Below, in pieces: positions 1-23,809 of a stretch of DNA of 42,140 nucleotides. This DNA comes from Mycobacterium sp. UM_WGJ. Lineage in GTDB: Bacteria > Actinomycetota > Actinomycetes > Mycobacteriales > Mycobacteriaceae. Every line of letters begins with the position of its first letter. Within the stretch, counting starts at the first letter, position 1. The stretch is taken from the NCBI RefSeq assembly GCF_000455125.1, contig NZ_AUWR01000088.1:1-42140 (forward strand). Direction: 5' to 3'. The notes beneath the pieces are model-generated. The model saw only the letters and a program-made list of their open reading frames with translations, was not told the origin of the DNA and made no database searches. The position numbers and the translations under genes are program-made.

Positions 1-240
1 CACGGTGTCGTCGTTGGCGATACCGCGCTCGGAGAGCAGCTTGGAAAACGCGGACTCGTCGATGACGTCGCGCCGTACCGGGTCCTGCAAGTCCTTGCGC
101 CAGTCCAGCCGGATCGCGCCCGGGATGTGGTTGATGTCATAGACGCTGGTGTCTTCGTCGACTTCGACGAACACGGTGTTGGGCGCGTCGAGATTGCTCT
201 CAGCCCAGTCGGTGGAGACCAGGACGTCAGAGCGTGCCAT
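1..240 (-). CDS. cysA: thiosulfate sulfurtransferase (rhodanese), N-terminal part only
   Basis: The first 80 residues are visible; the gene runs off the left edge, so the active-site cysteine is not seen. The N-terminus (MARSDVLVSTDWAESNLD) and the following VEVDEDTSVYDINHIPGA stretch are typical of the mycobacterial CysA2/CysA3 rhodanese, which transfers sulfane sulfur from thiosulfate to a thiol acceptor in the cytoplasm. The ATG start is preceded by an AAAGGATT ribosome binding site. It lies 44 bp downstream of the DUF4395 gene on the same strand, so it is probably the second structural gene of the operon controlled by the polycysteine leader. Identity as a CysA-type rhodanese is firm; which paralog is inferred from the thiX-lmeA-glnR neighbourhood. 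Confidence 0.92.
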   Translation of the reverse strand, partial: MARSDVLVSTDWAESNLDAPNTVFVEVDEDTSVYDINHIPGAIRLDWRKDLQDPVRRDVIDESAFSKLLSERGIANDDTV

Positions 241-284
241 GGTGGGAATCCTTTCTGGCTATTCCAGGGGAGATGCTGTGGTGG

Positions 285-749
285 TTACGCCGTATCCGGC
301 CGCAGCCGTACGACGAGTGGGTAGAGCTGGCAGCCCAGACAGATCCCGAAGGCGGCATTGAGAAAAGCGGCCGCCAGCGCAAACGCGGTGGCGATCAGGC
401 CGAGCCCCGGCGCGAACGCGAACCCGGCGACCCCGACCACGGCAAACACCAGGCCGACGAGCTGGGCGAAGCGCAACGGCGCCGTCGGCTCACGCTCGGT
501 GACCGGCCCCAGCCGCGGCGCCACCAGCCGGGCGAACAGCAGGCCGTAAGGGTGGCGGCGGGGGCCCGAGATGGCGCCGATCGCGAAGACGACGGCTTGG
601 GCGGCCAGCAGGCCGGCCGCGACCGCCGGGCGAAATTCGGCGATCAGCAAGACGGCCACCAGTACGGCGGTGGTGATCCAGGCGGCGAACCGGGGACCCC
701 GGACGTCTACCTGTTGTATCTGGGCGGTGTCGGTGTCGATGTCCCGCAT
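285..749 (-). CDS. DUF4395 membrane protein of a sulfur operon
   Basis: A 154-residue integral membrane protein with hydrophobic segments near residues 22-60 and 90-135, then a conserved GICLGCQLY motif (Cys137 and Cys140) near the C-terminus. This CxxC pattern and length fit the DUF4395 family, which is often next to rhodaneses; its reaction is not established. I chose the ATG at 749 over an in-frame ATG at 794 because GGGAG lies 6 bases upstream of it and because the residues before it look non-coding. It sits between the polycysteine leader and cysA, so a role in sulfur-compound uptake or thiol redox chemistry is plausible, but that is inference from context. Confidence 0.88.
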   Translation of the reverse strand: MRDIDTDTAQIQQVDVRGPRFAAWITTAVLVAVLLIAEFRPAVAAGLLAAQAVVFAIGAISGPRRHPYGLLFARLVAPRLGPVTEREPTAPLRFAQLVGLVFAVVGVAGFAFAPGLGLIATAFALAAAFLNAAFGICLGCQLYPLVVRLRPDTA

Positions 750-755
750 GAAATG

Positions 756-864
756 CTCCCTGCTGCTGTCGTGGCGAGTGGCTGGTGGAGACATGCCACG
801 GCTTTCCCGGGCGGCTCCGCTAGCGACGCGAAAACGCGCGTCTCAGCGGCAACGACAACAACAG
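756..864 (-). promoter_or_regulatory. attenuator: polycysteine codons can pair with the DUF4395 RBS region
   Basis: In the transcript the segment from 864 to 853 (CUGUUGUUGUCG, covering the Cys codons) is complementary over 12 consecutive bases, with two G-U pairs, to CGACAGCAGCAG at 771-760, which runs into the GGGAG ribosome binding site (760-756) of the DUF4395 gene. A smaller hairpin, GACGCG/CGCGTC with a six-base loop (825-842), follows directly after the leader stop codon. A ribosome paused on the Cys codons would prevent the long pairing and free the ribosome binding site. The complementarity is read directly; the mechanism follows the published M. smegmatis case. Confidence 0.7.
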
Positions 865-932
865 CAGCCCGCGGTGCGGCACAGGTCGACTGCGCGGCGC
901 TTGGTGAGCACAAGCTCAAGGCGGGCGAACAC
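843..932 (-). CDS. leaderless polycysteine leader peptide (cysteine attenuator)
   Basis: A GTG-initiated frame of 29 residues ending in Cys-Cys-Cys-Cys-Arg-Cys-Arg before TGA; the Cys codons are TGC TGT TGT TGT (866-855) and TGC (851-849), with one more Cys at residue 18. A TAGGCT -10 element ends 7 bases before the GTG, so the transcript should begin at the start codon and be translated without a Shine-Dalgarno sequence. Polycysteine leaderless short ORFs upstream of DUF4395/cysA operons are known in M. smegmatis, where ribosome stalling at the Cys codons under low cysteine opens the next gene. The assignment rests on the peptide, the promoter and the matching downstream operon. Confidence 0.88.
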   Translation of the reverse strand: MFARLELVLTKRRAVDLCRTAGCCCCRCR

Positions 933-939
933 GGCATAC

Positions 940-945
940 AGCCTA
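940..945 (-). promoter_or_regulatory. -10 element of the leaderless cysteine-attenuator transcript
   Basis: TAGGCT fits the mycobacterial TANNNT -10 consensus. Seven bases separate it from the GTG of the leader peptide, placing the predicted transcription start on the first base of the start codon at 932. No good -35 is visible, which is common for this promoter class. It lies just past the thiX stop codon, so the leader-DUF4395-cysA unit has its own promoter. Confidence 0.7.
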
Positions 946-961
946 CCCAACCCAGGGGCGG

Positions 962-1396
962 TCAAGCCAACAGAGGTTCCAGCGCAGAACGCAGGTCCGC
1001 GGTCGTCGGGACGCCCGCGGCGCGGTACCGTCGGCGTCCCTCGCCGTCGAAAATCACAGTGGTCGGCAGTGACAGCACCGAAAACCTGCGCGCGGCTTCG
1101 GGATTGGCGTCGATGTCGATCTCGTGATGGGCCACCTTCGCCGGGCCCCCGAGGTCATCACAGACTTTCTCCACCACCCGGCGCACGCCGGCGCACGGTC
1201 CGCACCACGGCGCCGAGAAATGCACCACCGCGGGGCGTCCCGGTTCCAGCCCCAAGAAGGCGGCCTCGGAAGCGGCGGCGTCGTCGCCTTGAGTCCCGGA
1301 GTCGGGCAGCTGGCGCAACACCCCGGCCCGCCGGTTCAGCCACCATCCGGTCGCGGCGGCGAACACCAGGGCGGCGACGATCGCGACGATGCTCAT
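962..1396 (-). CDS. thiX: membrane-anchored thioredoxin-like protein ThiX
   Basis: 144 residues. An N-terminal hydrophobic segment (about residues 3-20) is a likely signal anchor, followed by a thioredoxin fold with the WCGPC redox motif at residues 64-68 and the usual cis-proline region (LSLPTTVIF). It probably acts as a thiol-disulfide oxidoreductase on the outer face of the membrane. The start ATG overlaps the stop of lmeA by four bases (ATGA), so the two are translationally coupled. The position between lmeA and cysA matches Rv0816c of M. tuberculosis. The stop lies only about 17 bases before the -10 of the cysteine leader. Confidence 0.9.
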   Translation of the reverse strand: MSIVAIVAALVFAAATGWWLNRRAGVLRQLPDSGTQGDDAAASEAAFLGLEPGRPAVVHFSAPWCGPCAGVRRVVEKVCDDLGGPAKVAHHEIDIDANPEAARRFSVLSLPTTVIFDGEGRRRYRAAGVPTTADLRSALEPLLA

Positions 1397-2184
1397 CTTG
1401 GGCGGAACTCCGGCAGGGTGACCGTCATTCCGTCGGCGATGCCCTCGATGATCACATCGGAGCCGCGCGCACCCTGACTGGTCGGTACCAACCCGAACGG
1501 CAGCCGCTGCTGCGGCAAACTGCCGCGGAACGCGGTGAGCACTGCGGCGCGCTGCTCATCCGGCACACTCTGGTCGGCGGTGTCCGGGCCGGTGAGGATG
1601 CCGGTCGGGGTGATCACCAACGTGCTGTGATCTTCCCCACCGATGGACAGGTCCACGGCCACGCTCACCCGCTTGCCGAATCCCTCCGGCGTGCCGGTGA
1701 AGACCAGCCCGTGGCTGCTCGAGATTCCGGACTCCGTGGTGCCGCCGGTGTTGTCGTTGGTCTCGGCCGGCGGCGCCTCCACCATCAGGTCGCGGATGCC
1801 CAGGTAGCGGCCCAAATGCACAGAGCCGATGATAATTCGGCTCTCCAGTCTGGCCACCGGGATCGGGGCGTCCGGCCGAAACCGCCAGGTGGCCTGGGTC
1901 AGGTCGACCGAGTGCATCGTGGCCTCCAGCATCGACTTGCCGATAATCGGCTGCTCGACGGCCGGGGCCTTTATCTCCACCTCGGTGTAGTGATCGCGGC
2001 GCGCCTGCGGCAGAAACGGGAAACCCAGGATCGCCACGAACGGGTCTGCGCGCAGGGCCGTGGCCTGCCGTACTGCCCGTGACAACTGGTACTCGGCGTA
2101 GACGCTCGCGCCGAAATCGACCCCGGCGGTCACCAAGACCAGTGCCGCGATCGCGGCCGACATACCGATAAGCACCCTGCGCAC
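1393..2184 (-). CDS. lmeA: LmeA family phospholipid-binding protein (DUF2993)
   Basis: 263 residues with an N-terminal signal or anchor sequence (about residues 4-25) and an extracytoplasmic body of the DUF2993/LmeA type, including the IKAPAVEQPIIGKSMLEA stretch. In M. smegmatis LmeA is a cell-envelope phospholipid-binding protein needed for mannan elongation of lipomannan. Length and place next to glnR match Rv0817c. The GTG start at 2184 puts Arg-Arg directly before the hydrophobic segment; no strong ribosome binding site precedes it and the -10 at 2211-2206 allows only a short leader. It is divergent from glnR and coupled to thiX by an ATGA overlap. Confidence 0.88.
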   Translation of the reverse strand: MRRVLIGMSAAIAALVLVTAGVDFGASVYAEYQLSRAVRQATALRADPFVAILGFPFLPQARRDHYTEVEIKAPAVEQPIIGKSMLEATMHSVDLTQATWRFRPDAPIPVARLESRIIIGSVHLGRYLGIRDLMVEAPPAETNDNTGGTTESGISSSHGLVFTGTPEGFGKRVSVAVDLSIGGEDHSTLVITPTGILTGPDTADQSVPDEQRAAVLTAFRGSLPQQRLPFGLVPTSQGARGSDVIIEGIADGMTVTLPEFRPR

Positions 2185-2205
2185 TAGGTCATTCTGGCAG
2201 GTCGC

Positions 2206-2239
2206 ACGCTATCGTTAGATCACCTGGGACGCTGGAGGG
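2206..2239. promoter_or_regulatory. overlapping divergent -10 elements for lmeA and glnR
   Basis: TATCGT (2210-2215, plus) and TAGCGT (2211-2206, minus) both fit TANNNT and share two bases, so polymerase could engage only one direction at a time. GGAGGG at 2234-2239 is the glnR ribosome binding site, six bases before its TTG. No convincing -35 is visible on either strand. The overlap implies mutual exclusion between the two promoters. Confidence 0.4.
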
Positions 2240-2245
2240 CCTCTA

Positions 2246-3921
<1,676 letters not shown>

Positions 3922-22807: not shown

Positions 22808-23809
22808 CTACGGCGCTGATGGCTCCAACACCTTCTTGGCGGCGCGCTTCTCGGCCATCTTGGCCTCGCGCTCGAGCCGGCGTTGCTTGGCCAGCTCGAA
22901 CTTCTCGCACGTGTCGTCCAACTCGGCGACGATCTTGCCGATCTCCTCTTGGTAGCGGGCTGCCTCGCCGCTGAACTCTCGCTCCAGGATGCCCCACTTC
23001 TTCAGCACCGGCATCACCACGTCGTCGCGGTGGATGATGGGGTCATAGACGCCGCCGACTGCGATGATCACGGCCTTGCGGCGAAACTCCGGGACGACGA
23101 ATCCGGGCATCTGGAAGTTGGCCAGCACCCGGTGCAGCGAGCGCATCGCCTGTTCCGGCGCGATGTCGAAGCCGACGGCACTGACATCGCGGTAGAAGAT
23201 CATGTGCAGGTTCTCGTCGTGCGAGATCCGGGCCAGCAGCTGGTCGGCAATCGGGTCGTTGCAGGCCTGGCCGGTGTTGCGATGCGAGATCCGGGTGGCC
23301 AGTTCCTGGAAGCTGACATAGATGACCGAGTCGAACAGGCTCTCGGCGAACAGGTCGCCGGAGACCTGGTGGTTCTGGCCCGGGCTGAAACCGCGGTTGA
23401 CGGTCTCCATCCGCAGCGTTTCCAGTTCGATGGGGTCGCAGTTGCGGGTGACCACCAGGTAGTCGCGCAGGGCGATACCGTGCCGGTTCTCCTCAGCGGT
23501 CCAGCGGTTGACCCAGGTGCCCCAGGGGGCGTCCATGGTGAAGTTCATCGCGATCTCGCGGTGATACGAAGGCAGGTTGTCCTCGGTGAGCAGGTTCTGC
23601 ACCATTGCGGTCCGAGCGACCTCGGACAGTTTCGACTGCTCAGGATGCCAATCTTGCCCACCGAGCGCGTAGTAGTTCTTGCCCTCCGACCAGGGGATGT
23701 AGTCGTGGGGGTTCCAGTCCTTGGCCATCGAGAAGTGTCGGTTGATGAGCTTCTCCACGACAGGCTCGAGCTCGTGCAGCAACTCTACGTCGGTCCATTC
23801 CCGCGTCAT
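22808..23809 (-). CDS. desA1: acyl-[ACP] desaturase DesA1
   Basis: 333 residues, colinear with mycobacterial DesA1. The di-iron ligands of the soluble acyl-ACP desaturase fold are present: Glu76 with His83, EENRH (106-110), Glu169 with His176, and DENLH (198-202). DesA1 introduces a double bond into a long-chain acyl-ACP on the way to mycolic acids and is essential in M. smegmatis. ATG start with GGGGAG seven bases upstream and a good promoter at 23848-23876. The C-terminus is a lysine/arginine-rich helix. It sits next to dus as in M. tuberculosis. Confidence 0.94.
   Translation of the reverse strand: MTREWTDVELLHELEPVVEKLINRHFSMAKDWNPHDYIPWSEGKNYYALGGQDWHPEQSKLSEVARTAMVQNLLTEDNLPSYHREIAMNFTMDAPWGTWVNRWTAEENRHGIALRDYLVVTRNCDPIELETLRMETVNRGFSPGQNHQVSGDLFAESLFDSVIYVSFQELATRISHRNTGQACNDPIADQLLARISHDENLHMIFYRDVSAVGFDIAPEQAMRSLHRVLANFQMPGFVVPEFRRKAVIIAVGGVYDPIIHRDDVVMPVLKKWGILEREFSGEAARYQEEIGKIVAELDDTCEKFELAKQRRLEREAKMAEKRAAKKVLEPSAP

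Follow-up and report, generated by a model that had tools for sequence, protein, structure and literature searches.

The window examined here, a stretch of 42,140 nt from Mycobacterium sp. UM_WGJ, carries a short Cys-rich leader ORF that is the orthologue of Ms5788A, and we read this leader, with a probability of roughly 0.85, as an attenuator that responds to cysteine and most likely works at the level of translation. A second proposition, to which we give about even odds, is that the 5′ two thirds of the ORF in the Ms5788A family has a dual use: it is translated, yet selection would also maintain it as a three-way junction of RNA belonging to the switch, and the “conserved leader peptide” would be largely a by-product. 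The full junction is claimed for the Ms5788A family alone. This RNA inside the ORF is the part that is possibly new; the rest is a known cysteine attenuator in another species. If the junction is true, it changes the meaning of the “conserved” residues in a curated leader-peptide family, and it carries a prediction: synonymous recoding should break the switch.

Locus, leader ORF and promoter

On the minus strand, the genes follow the order LmeA-like, thioredoxin-like, the promoter element TAGGCT, the GTG leader ORF, DUF4395 and rhodanese-like, with a 93-nt spacer between the leader stop and the DUF4395 start (Table 1). The leader accordingly sits upstream of a DUF4395/rhodanese pair linked to sulfur metabolism, the operon context of the Ms5788A family. 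Among the matches listed, the DUF4395 protein has its best named relative in Mycolicibacter heraklionensis (86%). The rhodanese-like piece comprises 80 residues and has no NCBIfam match; we take this gene to be the one named CysA. Two further features of the window may be recorded. At 2246-3921 on the plus strand, the ORFs of a GlnR-type regulator and a GNAT acetyltransferase run divergently from the LmeA and thioredoxin genes, an order that, we presume, recalls the glnR-mshD neighbourhood. At 23424-23491 (+), there is a match to Rfam RF01781 ASdes, “ASdes TB sRNA”, with 64.5 bits against a gathering threshold of 40.

Table 1. Features of the leader region and its neighbours in the window, with the evidence for each.
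Feature	Position	Strand	Evidence
Thioredoxin-like gene, 5′ of leader	962..1396	-	PF00085
-10 element TAGGCT of a predicted leaderless promoter	940..945	-	sequence; conserved spacing to start
GTG leader ORF, probably leaderless, 29 codons, Ms5788A-family Cys-rich peptide	843..932	-	NF042933/NF042934 matches
P1 5′ strand GCCCGC, leader nt 7-12	921..926	-	fold, codon null, consensus, A2
P2 hairpin GAGC-UUGU-GCUC, leader nt 16-27	906..917	-	99% of 103 leaders
P3 hairpin GCGCAG-UCGAC-CUGUGC, leader nt 38-54, codons 12-17	879..895	-	96% of 103 leaders
P1 3′ strand GCGGGC, leader nt 61-66, adjoins Cys codons	867..872	-	fold, codon null, consensus, A2
Cys-codon tract Cys22-25, Arg26, Cys27: sensor and 5′ arm of lock	849..866	-	sequence, helix scoring
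Lock 5′ arm, in either of two registers (864-852, 867-855)	852..867	-	helix scoring, energies
Post-stop hairpin GACGCG-CGUUUU-CGCGUC	825..842	-	fold; no terminator; shuffle-level stability
Lock 3′ arm ACGACAGCAGCAG, overlaps first G of Shine-Dalgarno	760..772	-	helix scoring, consensus fold
Shine-Dalgarno GGGAG of DUF4395	756..760	-	6 nt 5′ of ATG 749
DUF4395 gene, first after leader	285..749	-	PF14340, 139.7 bits
Rhodanese-like gene, truncated by window end	1..240	-	PF00581, 22.8 bits vs cut-off 22.2

The preliminary description of this DNA, made from its letters alone, had placed the leader in a class known from M. smegmatis, and this assignment holds: the peptide scores 46.9 bits with NF042933 (“Ms5788A family Cys-rich leader peptide”, curated cut-off 45), which makes it the orthologue of a named and studied leader, and 38.3 bits with NF042934 (“putative leader peptide”, cut-off 27). 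Equally sound are the other elements that it read directly, namely a TAGGCT (945-940) separated by seven bases (939-933) from the GTG at 932, and 29 codons ending in CCCCRCR with the stop at 845-843. The leaderless promoter that it proposed gains from comparison. A TANNNT motif ends 6-7 nt 5′ of the start in 90 of 91 distinct non-outgroup upstream sequences (85 at 7 nt, five at 6 nt), and this conserved spacing supports a leaderless transcript that would start at or next to GTG 932.

A search for a GC hairpin and a U run before the gene returned no terminator-like site in 700-1020, which rules out a classical transcription attenuator with an intrinsic terminator, so that any termination would be of the Rho type. 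Rfam gave no match over the leader at E up to 5 in 1-3000, the sole weak match lying elsewhere (2586-2659). The extra hairpin that had been described right after the leader stop can be drawn, yet shuffled sequences do as well: over the 40 nt that follow the stop, the median rank for stability is 0.7, with 1 of 95 distinct spacers at or below 0.05 and the window at 0.8, and the hairpin was dropped as a conserved part.

Sample of related leaders

A scan of a genome collection provided 80 of 232 loci encoding a relative. A genus search found DUF4395 in 187 of 198 genomes and a family search in 226 of 251, and 30 loci were taken from each. Together with the window, the collection and genus loci (n = 110) comprise 101 with a clear leader, four with a diverged one (L023, L038, L069 and L081) and five with none; among them, L055 and L057 are titled as MAGs of other phyla or classes, and L059 is Rhodococcoides. 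The leader is present at 27 of the 30 family loci; 20 of these leaders were used and seven more were left out, including one whose genome was already represented. In all, 133 leaders entered the analysis. L040 was dropped, its LTHRR being outside the search pattern. The lock tests omit L057, L112, L114, L148, L156 and L160, where the position of the Shine-Dalgarno is unclear, while that of L036 was set by hand. “Mycolicibacter-type” denotes a peptide rule (VFAR... ending in R) and not taxonomy; it includes L158 and excludes L012 (M. acidiphilus).

Pairing of the Cys codons with the ribosome site

Central to the proposed attenuator is a helix between the Cys codons and the region before the DUF4395 Shine-Dalgarno, here called the lock. 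In the window, CUGUUGUUGUCG at 864-853 pairs with CGACAGCAGCAG at 771-760, the 12-bp helix of the preliminary description, in which two of the pairs are G-U. The description had also placed this helix directly abutting GGGAG; the helix does adjoin it, but it takes in base 760, the first G of GGGAG (760-756). On its own, the 12-bp lock has an energy of -17.5 kcal/mol, its 13-bp extension (864-852/772-760) reaches -19.2 kcal/mol, and a helix shifted by one codon towards the start of the ORF (867-855/772-760) is equally good at -19.5 kcal/mol, such competition being expected because the Cys codons are repeated.

Is this pairing more than chance? Gap-free helices were scored between the Cys tract and the 24 nt before the Shine-Dalgarno plus GGAG, against a background of 289 pre-Shine-Dalgarno regions that precede other ORFs of these loci, and the score of the window is attained by a fraction of 0.007 of that background. 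Duplex energy with loops discriminates less well: when the window's own pre-Shine-Dalgarno region is shuffled by dinucleotides, 29 of 100 versions match it. Chance pairing is thus rejected by the 289 background regions, though not by the window's own shuffles. The Ms5788A-family feature of a Cys tract that can pair at the ribosome site of the 3′ gene is present here, as pairing only.

The same kind of pairing recurs in relatives. Helices at or below 0.05 of background occur in 45 of 92 distinct non-outgroup pairs (other Mycobacterium 38/73, Mycolicibacter-type 7/17, Mycobacteroides 0/2), and by the same gap-free scoring none of the 17 outgroup pairs rises above background. A motif, CAACAGGAG, is found in 49 of 88 distinct non-outgroup pre-Shine-Dalgarno regions, in 0 of 16 from the outgroup, and in none of the 289 background regions. 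When partners were permuted among 90 pairs, 2 of 5000 permutations (20-nt region) and 6 of 5000 (28-nt region) reached the mean observed with each tract's own partner. The Cys tracts of other Mycobacterium pair better with Mycolicibacter-type partners (20.8) than with their own (18.6-18.9), because G also pairs with U. The 12 bp drawn for the window is not the conserved unit, even if the explicit pairing itself recurs: the 17 distinct Mycolicibacter-type pairs form helices of 7-13 bp, and among the nearest relatives the lock has 8 bp in L002, L083 and L029, 9 in L084, 10 in L008, and 12 in L024 and L087. In relatives the helices span 7-12 bp and mostly end 2-4 nt short of GGAG, and in L004, L007, L037, L054 and others the matching bases lie 7-9 nt 5′ of the Shine-Dalgarno.

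The lock also emerges from an alignment (A1) of 54 of 64 representatives, which omits L034, L052, L063, L074, L097, L103, L149, L151, L154 and L157. Its RNAalifold consensus has 21 pairs, consisting of the junction described below and, unprompted, five lock pairs (columns 83-87/224-228). Extended to seven pairs, the lock is paired in 94.8% of cells and has 21 cells changed on both sides, compared with 6.9 (sd 2.0) in shuffles, of which 0 of 500 reach that number, and with at most five in slid versions; the register one codon earlier is paired in 95.2% of cells, with weaker covariation. Columns 85/226 show the clearest change, with U-A in 41 and C-G in 10 of 54 leaders: Mycolicibacter leaders have UGU-CGU with ACGACA, whereas UGU-UGU goes with ACAACA in the others. 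On a rapidly built tree of the upstream sequences, which has two very long branches, these columns require three parsimony changes per side, always in the same direction, but only one independent pair of changes falls on supported branches, and at columns 87/224 the changes are not concerted. The search for compensatory changes that the preliminary description had proposed thus finds both-side changes at 85/226, few of them phylogenetically independent, and for these reasons the covariation is suggestive, not strong. The comparison confirms that in the relatives, too, the Cys codons double as an arm of the lock, with a Cys-to-Arg codon change linked to a change in the other arm. As for the outgroup, CCUGUGC (Cys-Leu-Cys codons) in L123, L126, L129 and L139 can pair with GCGCAGG, including the first bases of the Shine-Dalgarno; this is a possible shifted lock of 7 bp, at a level not above background.

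A simpler account of these data would be plain coupling or re-initiation, with the leader merely delivering ribosomes to DUF4395 and the pairing incidental to a CAG/CAA-rich region before the Shine-Dalgarno. The shuffles of the window's own sequence fit this account, and so does the finding, detailed below, that covering the Cys codons leaves the window's ribosome site closed. The distance speaks against it, since the leader stop and the DUF4395 start lie 61-107 nt apart (median 90) in 100 non-outgroup leaders, which is far for coupling; so do the absence of CAACAGGAG from the 289 other regions and the consensus lock pairing with its both-side changes. We consider this account very unlikely.

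A proposed three-way junction inside the ORF

Another question is what the remainder of the leader does. Most of 42 representatives, and the consensus as well, share one fold of the first 66 nt, made up of a closing stem, P1, and two hairpins, P2 and P3, with the general forms GAGC NNNN GCUC for P2 and, for P3, GCRCAG and CUGUGC around a five-base loop. The preliminary description had missed this structured 5′ part.

The argument rests on codons. Codon tables were compiled from 103 distinct leaders, 85 genus-type and 18 from the outgroup (the first 66 nt of the window's leader are those of L083 and are counted under it), and compared with a null in which the same peptides were given codons from local usage in 300 draws. 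Complete P1, P2 and P3 occur in 78, 99 and 96% of the leaders, as against 8, 17 and 11% in the null, whose maxima are 15, 27 and 18%. Third positions vary less inside the stems than outside (p 0.0003; 10 vs 11 positions). Natural RNA is stabler than GC-matched synonymous versions, with a mean z of -1.5 and 17 of 42 representatives in the best 5%. As related sequences are not independent, these statistics are effect sizes more than probabilities.

Single codons tell the same story. Codon 7 ends in G in 103/103 leaders while encoding M, V, L, S, T, A, R or K; codon 6 begins with C in 102/103 and is variable at its third base. Leu8 is CTC in 103/103, Leu16 is CTG in 102/103, and Cys17 is TGC in 102/103, whereas both TGT and TGC occur within the Cys tract. 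Among the 85 genus-type leaders, alanine is GCC at position 2 (66/66), GCA at position 13 (72/74) and GCG at position 20 (84/84), and GCA is the rarest Ala codon in the long ORFs of these loci (0.07). The stem bases are fixed and the amino acids vary, and the codon tables show why the “peptide” is conserved; a junction in the 5′ part of the ORF would make much of this conservation an RNA constraint.

The stems hardly vary, and the support for P2 and P3 is therefore a constraint at the codon level and not covariation: in the genus alignment no junction pair is changed on both sides. A second alignment (A2) holds 48 of 56 leaders, omitting L057, L100, L109, L110, L114, L127, L136 and L160. It has six junction cells changed on both sides, versus 1.4 in shuffles (0/500), although one slid control has eight; five of the six belong to outgroup leaders, in which P1 pair 10/63 goes from C-G to A-U. 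Of the 48 leaders, 12 lack P1 pair 11/62. Of the diverged leaders, L038 retains P2 and loses one pair in each of P1 and P3, and L023, being one codon shorter, is out of register for the pair count.

Perhaps the peptide itself matters. LTKRRAVDLCRxAG could act in the exit tunnel as an arrest peptide, cysteine being just one input, and two observations would agree with this: RRxVDLxR recurs across a large actinobacterial leader family, with NF042934 matches in 136 of 197 class genomes, and, of 64 distinct leaders of other types, 37 have no stem at the P2 position. What argues against it is that the Ms5788A family keeps its stem nucleotides constant but varies residues 2, 6 and 7, that L069 (D15E, C17R) and L081 (D15A) change the peptide core and keep all P1, P2 and P3 pairs, and that the other 27 leaders do have a 4-bp stem at that position, six of them GAGC/GCUC in another codon phase. 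An arrest peptide appears quite unlikely to us.

These six exact stems have a five-base loop and encode Met-Ser or Leu-Ser instead of Glu; two more stems are CAGC/GCUG, and most of the remainder are GGGG/CCUC with one G-U, from closely related leaders. Stems free of G-U number eight, against 1.5 (sd 1.2) in shuffles and a maximum of seven among 500. The same stem in another codon phase favours RNA over peptide for P2, with the reservation that many of the leaders concerned are closely related. Searched with a covariance model of the junction (R1), the window's genome yields a single strong copy and no second one, the next match having an E of 0.23. With E up to 0.01, the model also has matches in 100 of 150 order genomes, and 40 of 40 fetched stretches match again, but codon similarity in VDLCR carries part of the score.

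Several side observations concern the wider family. A single genome may hold up to 14 leaders of the NF042934 type. In CLC-ending leaders of the class and order, inspected by eye, the last Cys codon is TGT and the preceding one mostly TGC. The genome of L143 has a second short Cys-rich leader-like ORF (G000:C8, ~321771-321827) with the sequence ..VARRHIDFKRVCSCRCLP and an NF042934 score of 16.2 bits, below the cut-off. The ORF downstream of it resembles, by eye, what we presume to be nirA/sulfite reductase, and its Shine-Dalgarno lies, also by eye, within a local CUCC/GGAG hairpin.

Folding with a ribosome on the Cys codons

Can the site downstream be opened by a ribosome that covers these codons? 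In ribosome-free RNA the predicted fraction of lock pairing exceeds 0.3 in 17/18 Mycolicibacter-type leaders, 73/81 of other Mycobacterium, 0/3 of Mycobacteroides and 9/19 of the outgroup. Stalling was modelled by a mask that covers the Cys codons, with the second Cys in the A site, and read out as the cost of opening the ribosome site. Under this mask the cost falls by more than 1 kcal/mol in 43/81 leaders of other Mycobacterium, 3/3 of Mycobacteroides, 12/19 of the outgroup and 5/18 of the Mycolicibacter type, and it rises in 8/81, in 0/19 of the outgroup and in 8/18 of the Mycolicibacter type. A control mask at codon 12 lowers it in two leaders of other Mycobacterium, one of the outgroup, and none of Mycobacteroides or the Mycolicibacter type. 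A mask on the stop codon reduces the mean cost in other Mycobacterium from 6.7 to 5.0, compared with 5.2 for the stall, and with two masks so similar the model cannot separate stalling from finishing.

For the window, the folding check that the preliminary description had suggested did not come out in its favour: two attempts at equilibrium folding saw no release of its ribosome site by a stalled ribosome. The opening cost goes from 6.4 to 9.5 kcal/mol under the stall mask, with 7.7 at the best of four stall positions, and with the Cys codons masked the mean unpaired fraction of the Shine-Dalgarno goes from 0.26 to 0.02 in a longer RNA and from 0.33 to 0.44 in a shorter one. The description had called the attenuator complete, but folding alone does not show completeness. 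The switch is preferred despite these results because of the reported behaviour of the orthologue, the conservation, and a co-transcriptional time scale that the model ignores.

The mechanism that we propose runs as follows. Judging from the promoter spacing, the mRNA would start at or next to GTG 932, and ribosomes would load directly on the leader ORF. With ample Cys-tRNA they would finish the leader and leave; this would free the Cys codons to pair with one base of the DUF4395 Shine-Dalgarno and those just 5′ of it, and so presumably to hinder loading there. With Cys-tRNA in short supply, a ribosome would stall on the Cys codons and block the pairing, and DUF4395 and rhodanese would be translated, an effect that has been reported for M. 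smegmatis. The closing stem of the junction adjoins the Cys tract, and the junction may help to present the tract of ribosome-free RNA to the lock.

Persistence of the leader without DUF4395

Of the genus genomes with no DUF4395 (11) or a weak or partial one (four), 13 of 15 have a leader above cut-off, the two misses being in genomes that are 87% and 63% complete, and a MARSDV.. rhodanese-like ORF was seen downstream in nine of the 13. At eight loci (L149, L150, L152-L155, L158 and L159) with no or a weak DUF4395 match, the CAACAGGAG lock persists before a short remnant ORF, with a rhodanese-like ORF seen downstream in seven of the eight; there the switch outlives the gene once behind it.

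These loci bear on a reading in which the output is transcriptional: once the leader is finished and DUF4395 stays untranslated, Rho would terminate in or after the leader, and the pairing would act via polarity. The lack of an intrinsic terminator would suit this reading, and so would the retention of the leader where DUF4395 is missing or broken, since a remnant ORF precedes the rhodanese-like gene and polarity could carry the signal. It is nonetheless unlikely, given that the conserved 3′ arm is located at the Shine-Dalgarno and that PMC13236596 describes translation attenuation for the M. smegmatis genes.

The reverse situation, a thioredoxin-DUF4395 copy without a leader, was seen at L019, L020, L025, L050 and L071 (M. 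persicum, M. gastri, M. innocens, M. simulans and M. asiaticum). Loss of the leader was rejected here, as the junction RNA is found elsewhere in the four of four genomes searched, that of L071 being outside the search. Three of the RNA matches precede a DUF4395 start read by eye (L291-L293), and the fourth, L294, has an E of 7.8e-9. The leaderless DUF4395 loci are therefore second copies and not losses.

Comparison with known systems

How does this leader relate to the attenuators already described? The ilvB1 attenuator of M. tuberculosis (PMC13236596) is similar in that it has a uORF with the sensing codons and stalling that selects between RNA folds; it uses an intrinsic terminator, whereas none was found for the window leader. 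The NF042934 (cis_reg_atten) family shares the RRxVDLxR core and the terminal Cys codons, but its leaders differ in that only some of those of other types, the 27 of 64 counted above, have a stem at the P2 position.

In M. tuberculosis and M. smegmatis, the cysA2 uORF (Shell et al. 2015, PMC4633059, Fig. 7A) is leaderless and ends in a conserved cluster of Cys codons; the passages on it propose attenuation without giving a pairing, and report 70S occupancy in M. smegmatis. Two further papers describe attenuation by leaderless ORFs whose Cys codons are contiguous, with an effect on the translation of what follows (PMC9031893), and translation attenuation of cysteine biosynthetic genes in M. smegmatis (PMC13236596).

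The window leader differs from most of its relatives in ending with CCCCRCR, where theirs end with CCCCCCSC or CCCCCCC, and its lock has the 3′ arm CGACAGCAGCAG, which matches the Arg codon, instead of the (A/G)CAACAG that is common among them. It also belongs to another species than that of Ms5788A. In the M. smegmatis leader, ribosomes stalled on the Cys codons reportedly block structures that hide the ribosome site of the 3′ gene (Canestrari et al. 2020, Mol Microbiol 114:93-108). The window leader and Ms5788A have in common an ORF, in the window probably leaderless, with a run of Cys codons, membership in the same NF042933 family, and the same kind of operon downstream.
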